Shown: positions 45,625 through 51,113 of the stretch, piece after piece
Position numbering within the stretch: the first letter of the stretch is position 1
Layout of the letters: the number at the start of each line of letters is the position of its first letter
Source: Paramagnetospirillum kuznetsovii
GTDB taxonomy: Bacteria > Pseudomonadota > Alphaproteobacteria > Rhodospirillales > Magnetospirillaceae
Assembly (NCBI RefSeq): GCF_003284725.1
Contig: NZ_PGTO01000004.1
Coordinates: 186,001-250,000 of the forward strand
DNA length: 64,000 nucleotides
Direction of reading: 5' to 3'
Notes under the pieces: model-generated
Told to the model about the DNA's origin: nothing
Database searches by the model: none
The model's input: only the letters and a program-made list of their open reading frames with translations
Position numbers and translations under genes: made by a program

Positions 45625-46013
45625 GCGATTGGCGCTTGCTCCACACCATGATCCGGGTGGGCAACCTGGACCGATCCATCGACTTCTACACCAAGCTGCT
45701 GGGCATGAAGCTGTTGCGCCGCCAGGATTATCCCGAGGGCCGCTTCACCCTGGCCTTCGTCGGCTATGGCGACGAGGCGGAGCATACGGTGATCGAGCTG
45801 ACCCATAATTGGGATACCGCCAGTTATGAACTGGGTGGCGGCTTCGGCCATCTCGCCCTCGGCGTGCCCGATATCTACGGCGCCTGTGAGAAGATGGCGG
45901 CATCGGGCGCCAGTATCACTCGCCCGCCCGGCCCCATGAAGCACGGCAAGACGGTGATAGCCTTCGTGGAAGACCCCGACGGCTACAAAATCGAACTTAT
46001 CGAGAAGAAATAA
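45621..46013 (+). CDS. gloA: lactoylglutathione lyase (glyoxalase I)
   Basis: 130 residues, the usual size of the nickel-type bacterial enzyme. Two beta-alpha-beta-beta-beta modules are seen, with metal ligands His (LLHTMIRV), Glu (VIELTHNW), His (GFGHLALG) and Glu (KIELIEK). It converts the hemithioacetal of methylglyoxal and glutathione to S-lactoylglutathione. ATGA overlap with lpxB makes it the tail gene of the lpx operon. The 3' end overlaps convergent trmFO by 17 bp. Confidence 0.95.
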
Positions 46014-47343
46014 GGTCCAGCCAGGGCGTCAGGGCCTCACGGGCGCGGTCGGCATACAGCTTCTTGCGATCACGGCCCTTGATCTTGCGGCCTTTCTCGT
46101 CGCGCTCGGGCGGCGGTGGGAACAGGCCGAAATTGATGTTCATGGGCTGGTAGGTCTCGGCGTCGCCGCCGCCGGTCACATGGGCCAGCAGGGCGCCCAG
46201 CGCCGTGGTCAGGGGCGGGGCGGCCAGTTCGCCCCCCAAGGCCTCGGCCGCCGCGAACAAACCGGCCAGCAGGCCGATGGCGGCGCTCTCCACATAGCCC
46301 TCGCAGCCGGTGACCTGACCGGCGAGGCGCAGGCGGGGCTGGGCCTTGAGGCGAAGGCTGCCGTCGAGGACGCGGGGGCCGTTGACGAAGGTGTTGCGGT
46401 GCAGGCCGCCCAAGCGGGCGAATTCGGCGTTTTCCAGGCCCGGAATGGCGCGGAAGACTCGCATCTGGTCGCCATGGCGCAGCTTGGTCTGAAAGCCCAC
46501 CAGATTGTACAGAGTGCCCAGCGCGTTATCCTGGCGCAGTTGCACCACCGCGAAGGGCTTAGGGCCGTGCGGGCTGGTCAGTCCCACCGGCTTCATGGGG
46601 CCATAGGCCAGGGTGTCCTTACCGCGCGACGCCATGACCTCGATGGGCAGGCAGCCCTCGAAATAGGGCGTGTCCTTTTCCCAATCGTGGAACTCCACCT
46701 TGTCGCCCTCGATCAGGGCATCGATGAAGGCGTAATACTGTTCCCGCGTCAGCGGACAATTGATGTAGTCGGAGCCGGTCCCCTTATCGTAGCGCGACTG
46801 GAACCATGCCTTGGAGAAGTCGATGCTCTCCTTGGTGACGATGGGGGCGATGGCATCGAAGAAGGCCAGCGAGTCCTCGCCGGTCAGCCCGCGCAGCCCC
46901 TCGGCCATGGCGGGCGAGGTCAGGGGGCCGGTGGCGATGATCACGCTGTCCCAGTCGGCGGGCGGCAGACCGGGCACTTCTTCCCGTGCGATGGTGACCA
47001 GGGGATGGCCCTGCAACGCCGCCTGGATACCGGCGGAAAAGCCGTCGCGATCCACCGCCAGGGCGCCACCCGCCGGAACCTTGTGAATATCTGCCTGGGC
47101 CAGGATCAGGGAACCGGAACGGCGCATTTCCTCGTGCAGCAGCCCGACAGCGTTGTAATCGGCATCGTCGGAGCGCAGAGAGTTGGAACAGACCAGCTCG
47201 GCCAGCCCATCGGTTTGATGGGCCGGTGTCGGCCGCACCGGGCGCATTTCGTGGAGAATGACGGAAAGACCGGCCCGGGCGAGTTGCCAAGCAGCCTCGC
47301 ATCCGGCCAATCCGCCGCCGATGACATGGACGGTCTTGCTCAT
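45997..47343 (-). CDS. trmFO: FAD/folate-dependent tRNA (uracil-5-)-methyltransferase TrmFO
   Basis: 448 residues. It makes m5U54 in the T-loop of tRNA using methylene-tetrahydrofolate and FADH2. The N-terminal FAD motif is [33 protein letters not shown] and the C-terminal GLFPPPP region with [11 protein letters not shown] are typical. ATG at 47343. Convergent with gloA. Confidence 0.96.
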
Positions 47344-47387
47344 GCCCCGTCACATAGACGGTCCGGCCGTGGCTGTCCAGTATGGGC

Positions 47388-47654
47388 TTAGTATTTTGGC
47401 GAAACCGCCAACTGGGTCAGCCAGCCGACCGAGCCACCGGTCGCCGATGCGATCGAGGTATTGCCGGTGGCGGCCTTCTTCTTGACGCCTTCCACATCGG
47501 TGCCTTTCTTGCTGTCGGGCAGGTCCATGGGACCGAAGGCATAGGTGGCGAAGGCGCTGGACGGCCCCGAAGCCGCCTTGCGGGTCGAATGGCTGGCCGG
47601 ATTGTCCTTGCGGTTCAGCAGGATGTGCGACGACGCGCCGGAAAGTGCTTCCAT
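47388..47654 (-). CDS. small hypothetical protein
   Basis: 88 residues, Ser/Ala/Gly-rich, no signal peptide or membrane segment, no recognised domain. The ATG at 47654 has CGGAGA seven bases upstream, which supports translation. It lies 44 bp upstream of trmFO on the same strand and diverges from the duplicated DUF4170 gene across 203 bp. Function unknown; low-complexity composition leaves some doubt that it is real. Confidence 0.5.
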   Translation of the reverse strand: MEALSGASSHILLNRKDNPASHSTRKAASGPSSAFATYAFGPMDLPDSKKGTDVEGVKKKAATGNTSIASATGGSVGWLTQLAVSPKY

Positions 47655-47857
47655 AACGAAATCTCCGATGGAGAGTGGCTGCCCTCAACTCTGCATGCGC
47701 CATGCCAACTGCGAATTCGCGGCTTTCCGCCGTTCCAGCCCATGGCCAGGCGGCAAAAGCTGCCGGGTCGCCATGCGCGCAAGGACATTCCTTCCCGGCT
47801 CCCGATGGGGTATAAGCACGCCGCCACACTCCTTTCGGATGGGAAAGAGACTACCCC

Positions 47858-48259
47858 ATGGCCAAGCTTTATTTCGTTGTCGGCGGCGAATACGCCGATA
47901 CTTCGTTCTCCGTCATCGCCCCCGGTCATTCGGAGGAGCGTTTCGGTCCCTTTGATGAACGGGAAGCCCATATTTGCTGGCGTGCCCTCACCGGCAAGTC
48001 GGTGGACAACGCCATGGTGCGGTATTTCATCCGCGCCGGAGAAGACGCGGCTGAGGAAACTTGGTACGTGGTCGGCGGCGAATACTCCGACACAACTTTC
48101 CAAGAGATCGCGCCCGGTCGCACCAAGCAGGTGGTCGGCCCGTTCAGCCGTAAGGAAGCGCTGGACAAGTGGCGGGAACTGACCGGCAAGACGGTGGACA
48201 ACGCCCTGGCCCGGTTCGATCTGTGCACCGGCGAGGAACTGAAGCGTCAGGGTCTTTAA
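47858..48259 (+). CDS. DUF4170-like protein with internal duplication
   Basis: 133 residues consisting of two copies of one ~58-residue unit. Unit 1 (about 4-60) has YFVVGGEYADTSF, APGHSEERFGPF and LTGKSVDNAMVRY. Unit 2 (about 68-125) has WYVVGGEYSDTTF, APGRTKQVVGPF and LTGKTVDNALARF. The unit resembles DUF4170, usually single-copy in alphaproteobacteria. Cytoplasmic, function unknown. ATG at 47858 with GGGAAAGAG upstream; followed 67 bp later by a ferredoxin gene. Confidence 0.8.
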   Translation: MAKLYFVVGGEYADTSFSVIAPGHSEERFGPFDEREAHICWRALTGKSVDNAMVRYFIRAGEDAAEETWYVVGGEYSDTTFQEIAPGRTKQVVGPFSRKEALDKWRELTGKTVDNALARFDLCTGEELKRQGL

Positions 48260-48326
48260 ACCCTTACAAAGTACCGGTGATTGCGGTATTCGTTGTAAGC
48301 ATTCTAATTTTGACGGGAGATCATCC

Positions 48327-48659
48327 GTGTCGCACTACCCCAACAAGTATCATGCCTTCGTCTGTGGCCAGCGCCGTCCCGACGGGCATCCGCGCGGCTG
48401 CTGCACCAGCAAGGGCGGCGGCGCTCCGCTGTTCGAGCGTCTGGCCGGGAAGGTCAGTGAATTGAACCTCTGGGAGCAGGGTGTCAGCGTCGCGACCGCC
48501 AGCTGCCTCGGCTTTTGCAAGGCTGGTCCCTTGATGGTCGTCTATCCCGAGGGCATCTGGTACAAGCCCGAGAACGTGGCCGATATCGACGAGATCGTTC
48601 AATCGCACTTCGCCAATCACAAGCCGGTCGAGCGGCTGATGGTCACTCCCGGCAAGTGA
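48327..48659 (+). CDS. thioredoxin-like [2Fe-2S] ferredoxin
   Basis: 110 residues. Cysteine spacing C13...CC (25-26) then C59...C63 in ATASCLGFCKAGPLMVVYPEG matches thioredoxin-fold 2Fe-2S ferredoxins (also the NuoE C-terminal type). HAFVCGQRRPDGHPRGCC is the first ligand loop. A small electron carrier; partner unknown. GTG start at 48327 with GGGAGA seven bases upstream. Stop lies 6 bp from the convergent CULT gene. Confidence 0.88.
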   Translation: MSHYPNKYHAFVCGQRRPDGHPRGCCTSKGGGAPLFERLAGKVSELNLWEQGVSVATASCLGFCKAGPLMVVYPEGIWYKPENVADIDEIVQSHFANHKPVERLMVTPGK

Positions 48660-48665
48660 TGCCGT

Positions 48666-49049
48666 TCAGATCTTGGACGTGGTCAGCATGTCCTTGATCA
48701 GACCGAAGAAAATCCTGGGCTCGGCGGCGCCTTCGTAACGCCAGCCCAGGTGCGCGCCACAGGCACGGCAGGCGGCCAGCCGCCATAAATATCCCGAAAA
48801 CCATGTGAACACCCCCGACGCCGCGCCGTCGGCCGCCGCCCCCGTGGCGTCGCGGAAGCATAGGATACGGAATAACAGTCCGGCGGGATTGAAGACCACA
48901 TGCTCGTGGTCGCCGTTCATGCGCATTTCCCAGGTGCCACGGGTCACCAATGAATGGCACCGGCTACAGTAATAATCAATATCATCGCGCCAAGGCGTCG
49001 TGGTGACTTCTGACTTGGTGGCATCACGGGGCATTTCGTTTGTCGTCAC
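48666..49049 (-). CDS. single-domain CULT (cereblon thalidomide-binding-like) protein
   Basis: 127 residues from GTG at 49049 (ATG at 49034 is an in-frame alternative). Zinc ligands: CSRC (Cys28, Cys31) and CRAC (Cys94, Cys97). Aromatic cage: Trp83, Trp89 and Trp103, spacing 6 and 14, identical to Trp380/386/400 of human cereblon and Trp79/85/99 recalled for MsCI4 of M. gryphiswaldense. Tyr105 follows as in MsCI4. NGDHEHVVFNPAG and FFGLIKD are further conserved blocks. The known domain binds thalidomide-type imides and uridine in vitro; the natural bacterial role is unsettled. Probably cytoplasmic. Confidence 0.9.
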   Translation of the reverse strand: MTTNEMPRDATKSEVTTTPWRDDIDYYCSRCHSLVTRGTWEMRMNGDHEHVVFNPAGLLFRILCFRDATGAAADGAASGVFTWFSGYLWRLAACRACGAHLGWRYEGAAEPRIFFGLIKDMLTTSKI

Positions 49050-49158
49050 TCGTGCATGTCAGCGCTGGCTTGGGTCGCAACATCGTTTTGATTAGGTTCA
49101 CCTGATCGAAGGTATAAGCCGCTTATCCCATTACCTTTTTTACATTCATATGCCGCTA

Positions 49159-49177
49159 ATTTAATGTCGCATTAAAT
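49159..49177. promoter_or_regulatory. AT-rich palindrome between the CULT gene and the 65-residue ORF
   Basis: ATTTAATG-tcg-CATTAAAT, a perfect 8-bp inverted repeat with a 3-bp spacer, 25 bp upstream of the ATG at 49203 and in the divergent 153-bp gap. It stands out from the GC-rich surroundings and overlaps a plausible -10 region, so an operator is likely. Confidence 0.55.
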
Positions 49178-49202
49178 ATAGGGCATTCGAGGCGAGGACG
49201 GC

Positions 49203-49400
49203 ATGTATCAGGACGACGCCAGCGCCATAGACCGGCTTACCGCGCTGCTGGACGATGAAGCGCAGGGGCTGCCTTTCGACGTGGAAGAGGCGGCTCGCCT
49301 TGCCCAGGAAGTTGCCCGAATCATTCCCGAGGTCTCGCCCTATATGCGGCGCATCGCCGAGCGGCTGAAGGCTCGCCAGGGCAGGACCAGGGCGGCCTAG
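49203..49400 (+). CDS. small hypothetical protein
   Basis: 65 residues, acidic N-terminal half and basic C-terminal tail, predicted wholly helical (DDEAQGLPFDVEEAARLAQE), no recognised domain. ATG at 49203 preceded by GAGGCGAGGA. Divergent from the CULT gene and sharing its palindromic intergenic region; 4-bp overlap with the convergent parvulin gene. Function unknown; a regulatory or adaptor role would be a guess. Confidence 0.6.
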   Translation: MYQDDASAIDRLTALLDDEAQGLPFDVEEAARLAQEVARIIPEVSPYMRRIAERLKARQGRTRAA

Positions 49401-49717
49401 TCCGTCCGCTGGATGAGATGATAGCCGAACGGTGTCTCCACCACGCCGCTGGTTTCACCCGGCTCCAACTTGAAGGCGGCCATATCGAATTCCGGCACCA
49501 TGGCACCCTTGGGAAAGAAGCCCAGATCGCCGCCATCCTCGGACGAGGGGCAGTCGGAATATTGGCGGGCCATCGCGCCGAAATCGGCGCCTTCCCTGAT
49601 TTCCTCCATGATCTCGGAAATGGCGGACAGCGCTTCCTCCTTGGTGCGGCTGGCCTGCGAACGCATGGAGCCCTTGTACATCAGCAGGATATGGGCGGCG
49701 CGGATCTGGTCGGACAT
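49397..49717 (-). CDS. parvulin-type peptidyl-prolyl isomerase
   Basis: 106 residues, a single PpiC/rotamase domain: IRAAHILLMYKG at the start, then YSDCPSSEDGGDLGFFPKG and ETPFGYHLIQRTD at the end. No signal peptide, so cytoplasmic, like E. coli PpiC (parvulin). It catalyses cis-trans isomerisation of prolyl bonds. Lies 35 bp after the SPOUT methyltransferase gene on the same strand. Confidence 0.93.
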   Translation of the reverse strand: MSDQIRAAHILLMYKGSMRSQASRTKEEALSAISEIMEEIREGADFGAMARQYSDCPSSEDGGDLGFFPKGAMVPEFDMAAFKLEPGETSGVVETPFGYHLIQRTD

Positions 49718-49752
49718 GGAACGGCTCCGAAGGAGGGAAGGGAAGGTTCACT

Positions 49753-50535
49753 CTAGGCCGAACGGCGGGCCTTCGCCAATTCATGAATCAGGATGGCGGC
49801 GGTGGCCGCCACGTTCAAGGACTGGATGCGGCCAGTGCCCATGATGGTGGCGATCTCGTCGCAGGCGGCCAGGGTGGCAGGCGGCAGACCGCTTTCCTCA
49901 TTCCCCAGAATCATGGCGATGGGCTTGGCCGACGGAGCTAGACAGTCGGTCAAGGGGCGACCGGCGCCCAGGGCGGTGCCGACAATTCTGTGGGAATCCC
50001 TCAGCCGTTTCAAAGCCGGAATAAGTTTCGGGGTGTGAAAGACCTCGATCCATTCCAGTCCGCCCTCGGAGACCCGGAAGGCGGCTTCCGACGGCAGGGC
50101 CTGGGCGGGATTGTCCGAGACGATCAGCCGCTCCATGCCGAAGAAGGCCATGGTCCGGGCGATGGCGCCCAGATTGTGCGGATTGCCGACGCCGTCGAGG
50201 ATCAGCAGCGGCGCGCCCGATTTGGCCCATAGCCGCGCCTCGGCCGGATCGAACACGGCCAGCGGCTTGGGTTTCGCCACCACCACGATGCCGCCGTGCA
50301 ATTGGGTGCCCGCGATCTTGCTGAGTTCATCGGTGGGCACCAGCCGGTAGGGCTTGTGCTGCTTGGCCATCAGGGTGCAGAACCCCCCGACCAGCGGCTT
50401 CATGCGGTCGTCGTAGAACAGGCGTTCGGCCCGGCGGGGATCGTGCTCGAACAGCGCCTTGACCGCCGGCAGGCCGGTGATGCGGTCGGTGTCGTCCTTC
50501 GGGGGCTTCTTGTGTGGAGCCGGGGCTCGTGCCAT
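49753..50535 (-). CDS. TrmH-family (SPOUT) RNA 2'-O-methyltransferase
   Basis: 260 residues. A substrate-binding N-terminal domain (about 18-90) precedes the trefoil-knot SPOUT domain with LILDGVGNPHNLGAIART, MILGNEESGLP and SLNVAATAAIL, the three TrmH motifs. It methylates a ribose 2'-OH in rRNA or tRNA; which site is not predictable (RlmB/TsnR-like). A basic proline-rich N-terminus (HKKPPKDD) may help RNA binding. Confidence 0.92.
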   Translation of the reverse strand: MARAPAPHKKPPKDDTDRITGLPAVKALFEHDPRRAERLFYDDRMKPLVGGFCTLMAKQHKPYRLVPTDELSKIAGTQLHGGIVVVAKPKPLAVFDPAEARLWAKSGAPLLILDGVGNPHNLGAIARTMAFFGMERLIVSDNPAQALPSEAAFRVSEGGLEWIEVFHTPKLIPALKRLRDSHRIVGTALGAGRPLTDCLAPSAKPIAMILGNEESGLPPATLAACDEIATIMGTGRIQSLNVAATAAILIHELAKARRSA

Positions 50536-50567
50536 GACAGGGCCTAATCTTCAGTGTGGAGAGTGTT

Positions 50568-51113
50568 GTGCCTCGGCTGATCCTGTTCAACAAGCCTTAT
50601 GACGTGCTGACCCAGTTCACCGACCGCGAAGGCGGACGCGCGACCCTGAAGCAGTTCATCGACGTGCCCGGGGTCTATGCCGCCGGACGGCTGGACCGGG
50701 ATTCGGAAGGGCTGCTGGTGTTGACCGATTCCGGGCCGCTGATCAAGCGTATCAGCGATCCCCGCGCCAGGCTGCCCAAGACCTATTGGGCCCAGGTGGA
50801 GGGTAGCCCCACCGAGGAGGCCTTGGACCGCCTGAGGCACGGCGTGACGCTGAACGATGGGCCAACGGCGCCCGCCCAGGCATGTTTGATGGAGGAACCG
50901 GCCGATCTTTGGCCGCGCCATCCGCCCATCCGTTATCGCGCCGCCATTCCCACCGCCTGGATTCAGCTGATCATCACCGAAGGCCGCAACCGCCAGGTCC
51001 GGCGCATGACCGCCGCCGTTGGCTTCCCAACCCTGCGGCTTGTTCGCTGGGCGGTGGGGGAGTGGACCCTGAACGGGCTGAACCCTGGCCAGTGGCGAGA
51101 CGAAACACCCTAA
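50568..51113 (+). CDS. RluE-like 23S rRNA pseudouridine synthase
   Basis: 181 residues without an S4 domain, as in RluE (E. coli 23S U2457). The catalytic Asp is in [12 protein letters not shown], and KTYWAQVEG and [15 protein letters not shown] are the other family motifs. The GTG at 50568 was chosen because GGAGAG stands four bases upstream; GTG at 50556 would add four residues. Divergent from the SPOUT gene across 32 bp, so two RNA-modification genes share a promoter region. Confidence 0.93.

Follow-up and report, generated by a model that had tools for sequence, protein, structure and literature searches.

The window (the whole stretch of 64,000 nt from Paramagnetospirillum kuznetsovii analyzed here) carries on its minus strand an open reading frame for a single-domain CULT protein. 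The first-pass annotation had placed this ORF at 48666..49049, with a GTG start and 127 aa; the frame is real and its coordinates are exact, the strand, which had been left unstated, is minus, and the plus strand read likewise across 48666-49049 runs into five stops. The most likely coding sequence, whose product matches MsCI4 in phmmer, is slightly shorter (48666..49034 including the stop codon, minus strand), with an ATG at 49034 and a product of 122 aa. In 18 of the 19 intact CULT homologs from the family of the window (the broken gene of locus L045 was not part of the start comparison) the N-terminus reads MP[RL]D, which corresponds to the window protein from residue 6 onward in the GTG numbering. 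Since the homologs open in this way and the codons of the motif vary synonymously among them, translation probably starts at the ATG rather than at the GTG; the linker behind the motif is variable. At the DNA level, the N-terminus with the motif conserved in L027-L044 lies at window positions 49020-49034.

The search of the genome gave one match. The gene is under purifying selection, with pairwise NG86 dN/dS values of 0.14-0.47 against 17 relatives (for an 18th, dS was not usable) and of 0.12-0.47 in eight close pairs. A scan of positions 48250-49850 found neither promoters nor terminators, the chance expectations being 0.5 and 1.3.

Downstream, a [2Fe-2S] ferredoxin-like protein (48327..48659, plus strand; matches to NCBIfam NF041613 and NF041612 that fall far short of the cut-offs) is encoded convergently, its stop codon 6 nt from that of CULT, and is followed by a DUF4170 protein (47858..48259, plus strand; Pfam PF13773). 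Upstream and on the same strand as CULT lies the gene of a parvulin-type PPIase of 106 aa (49397..49717, minus strand; Pfam PF13616 and PF00639). Between them, a small ORF of 65 aa (49203..49400, plus strand) is divergent from CULT and overlaps the PPIase stop by 4 nt; it has no Pfam or NCBIfam match at an E-value of 0.01. Pfam further identifies a GIDA-family protein, read as TrmFO (45997-47343), a SpoU methylase (49753-50535) and a pseudouridine synthase (50556-51113), all three of which we take to act in RNA modification. These genes form a cluster at 45997-51113 and are also present around the CULT-less site of L098. The usual order in the family is parvulin PPIase upstream, CULT, convergent ferredoxin, then DUF4170 and TrmFO.

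The ferredoxin gene and the small ORF do adjoin CULT, as previously annotated, and neither looks like its partner. Ferredoxin matches (paralogs counted) occur in 53 of the 55 family genomes, whether or not CULT is present, while relatives of the small ORF are dispersed over 31 of the 55, with a near ortholog in G047, a genome that has no CULT match. Both were therefore rejected as specific CULT partners.

Homology to MsCI4 and the residues of the predicted pocket

Among PDB chains, the best phmmer matches of the protein are the MsCI4 entries (4V2Y, E-value 3.6e-37; 53 of 98 aligned residues identical, gap-free), followed by cereblon chains (E-values from 6e-11 to 4e-8). A profile built from 32 bacterial CULT proteins reported MsCI4 with an E-value of 5e-45 and cereblon with 1.5e-22 at best. 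The ORF of 122-127 aa amounts to the CULT domain alone, and bacterial members made up wholly of this domain are on record (PMC4287342). The earlier assignment as a single-domain CULT protein is thus borne out, and we regard membership of the CULT family and orthology to MsCI4, at the corresponding chromosomal site, as practically certain. The NCBIfam search returned no match for the protein, PADLOC contained no match to CULT, and PHROGs gave an E-value of 0.093 at best; searches of viral contigs, plasmids and phages yielded no relatives. A phage or plasmid origin was rejected for lack of such relatives, as was a role in anti-phage defence for lack of a PADLOC match.

The two CxxC pairs and the three Trp residues with 6/14 spacing described in the first-pass annotation are all present in the ORF (C28/C31, C94/C97, W83, W89 and W103 in the GTG numbering). 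In the ATG numbering used hereafter they become C23/C26, C89/C92, W78, W84 and W98, with Y100 as a fourth aromatic residue. The protein also possesses an NPAG motif (N49-P50-A51-G52); an NPxG motif is described in PMC4449219. The first Cys residues of the two pairs are 66 positions apart in the window protein and, with few exceptions, in its relatives. Similarity to MsCI4 and cereblon supports the reading of these residues as putative zinc ligands and cage, and homology to 4V2Y suggests a beta-tent fold in which they would surround one pocket.

In the 32-sequence alignment C23, C26, N49, P50, G52, C59, W78, F79, W84, C89 and C92 are invariant, as are G97, W98, F109 and L112. In the wider alignment of bacterial CULT sequences, from which the truncated L006_12 and the broken L045 gene were excluded, all 117 rows retain the four Cys residues, and 105 of them additionally retain N49 and all three Trp. 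These 105 rows represent 103 distinct sequences, since two canonical pairs do not differ in their core, and one such pair is the same gene encountered twice (L007/L188). The division into 105 canonical and 12 divergent rows is partly circular, because it was made by profile score (<110 bits) in the 60 new loci and manually in the case of four copies of L005/L006; the plain count is 105 of 117 with three Trp and 12 lacking the first. Position 100 is Y or F in every canonical row, two rows deviate at P50 or G52 (L004, L044), and C59 (window positions 48858-48860), a non-zinc Cys, is kept in 103 of the 105.

The 12 divergent rows are tandem copies from eight genomes (L005, L006, L182, L185, L191, L199, L205 and L209), in which they stand beside a canonical copy (a truncated one in L006). 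W84, W98 and the four Cys are retained in all of them, but W78 and the N49 of NPxG are both gone, with P50 lost in 9 of the 12 and G52 in none. As the flexible NPxG-hairpin region has been reported to hold the first cage Trp in place through a hydrogen bond (PMC4449219), the joint loss is coherent and suggests that W78 and N49 behave as one ligand-holding unit.

Distribution and genomic context of CULT genes

CULT was detected in 20 of the 55 genomes of the window's family (one gene broken), which belong to 4 of its 17 genera, and the gene lies at the same site in many of them. It is present in 4 of 385 genomes of the class sample and in 21 of 398 genomes of the phylum sample (the window's own genome counted in both), and in 8 of 18 genomes from a further family of the phylum, and it is common in the class that includes the Desulfovibrionales genome G799 (104 of 247 genomes); a mainly deltaproteobacterial spread of bacterial CULT has already been reported (PMC4287342). 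In G022 the CULT frame (L045) ends early, and an element may have cut it. The frame downstream of the shortened gene (approximately 9034-9700 of L045) reads like an integrase, as judged by eye from the letters. The absence of CULT from many close relatives, together with the shortened gene of G022, indicates that it is dispensable. The CULT and TrmFO trees, compared for 17 of 19 genomes (G009 and G046 have no usable TrmFO in the stretch covered), concur on the main groups and differ on G029. The pattern is most simply read as descent with repeated loss, though single genomes may have gained the gene.

Neither in the phylum loci outside the class of the window nor in the class of G799 did we find a partner common to all lineages, which fits a protein working by itself. 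Outside the class, a gene of one cluster (a rhodanese according to Pfam in L079) follows CULT in L072, L079 and L089, and a member of a second cluster (BatD according to Pfam in L074) lies ahead of it in L073, L074 and L078. In the class of G799 the neighborhoods were analyzed for 60 of the 104 CULT-positive genomes (the low-scoring single genes of G836, G843, G861 and G979 were left out); the neighbors are clade-specific, and in 13 of the 60 loci CULT lies between genes read from the sequence as lysS and pyk. Among the matches listed, judged by titles and the openings of abstracts and with most subscription journals outside the scope, we found no literature on the gene neighborhoods of bacterial CULT genes.

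Predicted ligand and possible roles

MsCI4 has been reported to bind thalidomide and uridine, with parts of the protein becoming ordered on binding (PMC4449219), and human cereblon to read C-terminal cyclic imides (aspartimide or glutarimide), for which PCMT1 (PIMT) is the reported maker of the mark in humans (PMC13001092, PMC12117711). By analogy, the four cysteines of the window protein would hold a zinc ion at the apex of the beta-tent, while W78, W84, W98 and Y100, positioned by the NPAG hairpin, would form an aromatic cage that may close on a planar NH-imide ring of the glutarimide, aspartimide or uracil type, and full folding may be attained only with the ligand bound, as reported for MsCI4. 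That the window protein binds a ring of the thalidomide/uracil class is very likely on this analysis; for CULT membership, orthology to MsCI4 and such binding taken together we estimate a probability of roughly 0.85.

As to the role of the protein, the one we favor is that of a reader of cyclic imides, most likely of the aspartimide or glutarimide that damaged proteins would carry at their C-termini, acting alone and without ubiquitin. A protein cyclic imide is a tentative choice of physiological target, with somewhat less than even chances. In the class of G799, PIMT, counted at an E-value of 1e-20, is not significantly associated with CULT (102 of 104 CULT-positive versus 134 of 143 CULT-negative genomes, p 0.13; G935 and G958 are the two CULT-positive genomes without a match), and PIMT-family matches over the Pfam cut-off, a few of them weak, occur in 53 of the 55 family genomes; the co-occurrence thus neither supports nor excludes a role in protein damage. 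None of the neighbors in the loci examined points to a protein-damage pathway across lineages.

Alternatively, the physiological ligand might be uracil, uridine or another free small ring, which the protein would buffer or sense. Such a role would agree with the binding of uridine by MsCI4 and with its co-crystallization with deoxyuridine (PMC4449219, PMC4287342). RNA-modification genes (TrmFO-like, SpoU methylase, pseudouridine synthase) indeed lie near CULT, and in six loci (L029-L034) what reads like a pseudouridine synthase gene faces it convergently; however, TrmFO, SpoU and pseudouridine synthase flank the empty site of L098 as well and are therefore not CULT-specific, and 122 aa are too short to accommodate an effector domain. 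We consider the sensing or buffering of a free metabolite unlikely, though less so than a coupling of CULT to the PPIase.

Such a coupling would mean that, in the window's family, CULT works as a pair with the parvulin PPIase, for instance as a protein-repair or refolding unit. The first-pass annotation described the CULT gene as free-standing, which is correct for the window and does not hold for 6 of the 20 family loci (L028, L037, L039, L041, L042 and L043), where CULT starts 2-7 nt past the PPIase stop. The distance to the CULT ATG is 109 nt in two more loci (L040, L044), but 362 nt in the window and approximately 359 nt in L027, with the antisense small ORF in between in both; other genes intervene in L029-L034, over 4.8 kb separate the PPIase from CULT in L035 and L036, and in L038 no PPIase was found. 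The gene calling in these neighborhoods was homology-guided and crude, and the spacings of 359 nt in L027 and 1056 nt in L033 replace values of 70 and 788 nt that came from an over-extended alignment. The PPIase also lies within the stretch examined at 6 of 15 CULT-less ferredoxin loci (at approximately 80 nt from the ferredoxin gene in L098 and 105 nt in L108), and because these six genomes keep it near the ferredoxin, the pairing with CULT is only suggestive.

The PPIase itself is longer (212 aa, versus 106 aa in the window) in six CULT-bearing genomes of one genus (L039-L044), with two rotamase stretches in the one tested (L042, 8078-8716), whereas the PPIases of the CULT-less L113, L116 and L120 align as a single domain. 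This difference would fit a functional pair, but the long form may merely mark one clade, and the PPIase is not among the recurrent neighbors of CULT in the other lineages examined. Altogether, we regard a functional pair as improbable. Slightly more doubtful still is a composite scheme in which bacterial CULT proteins would read cyclic imides at protein C-termini without ubiquitin, this being the original use of the cereblon pocket. In the window's family the reader would be produced with the parvulin from a coupled gene pair, and the tandem copies of the Desulfovibrionales relatives would have turned to a second ligand by the joint loss of W78 and of the Asn of NPxG.

Comparison with known systems

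Yippee and MsrB proteins belong to the same beta-tent fold class (PMC4287342), and the only Pfam match of the window protein is indeed to Yippee-Mis18 (PF03226, E-value 0.0037), but this weak likeness reaches 17.8 bits where the cut-off is 26.6 and is limited to residues 85-109, the region of the second CxxC, while YPEL5 comes after cereblon in the single-sequence phmmer search (E-value 0.98) and the 32-sequence profile gives YPEL5 0.006 and solved MsrB structures a non-significant 0.11 or weaker, far behind MsCI4, so that a Yippee-like or MsrB-like identity is rejected on sequence, as far as these searches reach, and has a negligible chance of being correct. A closer match to a Yippee-like family, set beforehand by the first-pass annotation as a refutation of the CULT assignment, was looked for and is absent.

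In cereblon, the CULT (thalidomide-binding) domain is homologous to the window protein. Cereblon proper has a LON domain in addition, whereas the window ORF has none; the two LON-domain matches of the genome lie on contigs C1 and C11, the window being on C43, and such matches are found in 54 of the 55 family genomes, which makes their presence uninformative about a split cereblon. To our knowledge, the ubiquitin-ligase context of cereblon is absent in bacteria. CULT is the pocket of thalidomide-type drugs and of many protein degraders, and what is new here is its genomic context. The window gene adds an ortholog of the crystallized model. Three handles for tests follow from the comparison: the CULT site occupied or empty among close relatives, the pairing of PPIase and CULT genes in a genome whose CULT protein is near-identical to MsCI4, and the natural divergent copies lacking one cage Trp, which could serve as controls of ligand specificity.

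The closest known system is MsCI4 (MGR_0879, "cereblon isoform 4" of Magnetospirillum gryphiswaldense), which dates from 2014 (PMC8900816); papers of 2014-2015 already described the bacterial family and its cage and raised the question of the ligand (PMC4287342, PMC4449219), and the window gene is a further ortholog of this model, not the founder of a novel family. Like the window protein, MsCI4 is a single CULT domain, with identical zinc ligands, cage Trp residues and NPAG motif; it has E where the window protein has V75, three residues before W78. The CULT protein of L042 is near-identical to MsCI4, and its gene is found in the same order as in the window (PPIase, CULT, convergent ferredoxin). 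The two loci differ at the N-terminus of the protein (MPRDA in the window, MPLDA in L042) and in the spacing of the genes, with 362 nt from the PPIase stop to the CULT ATG in the window and 2 nt in L042.
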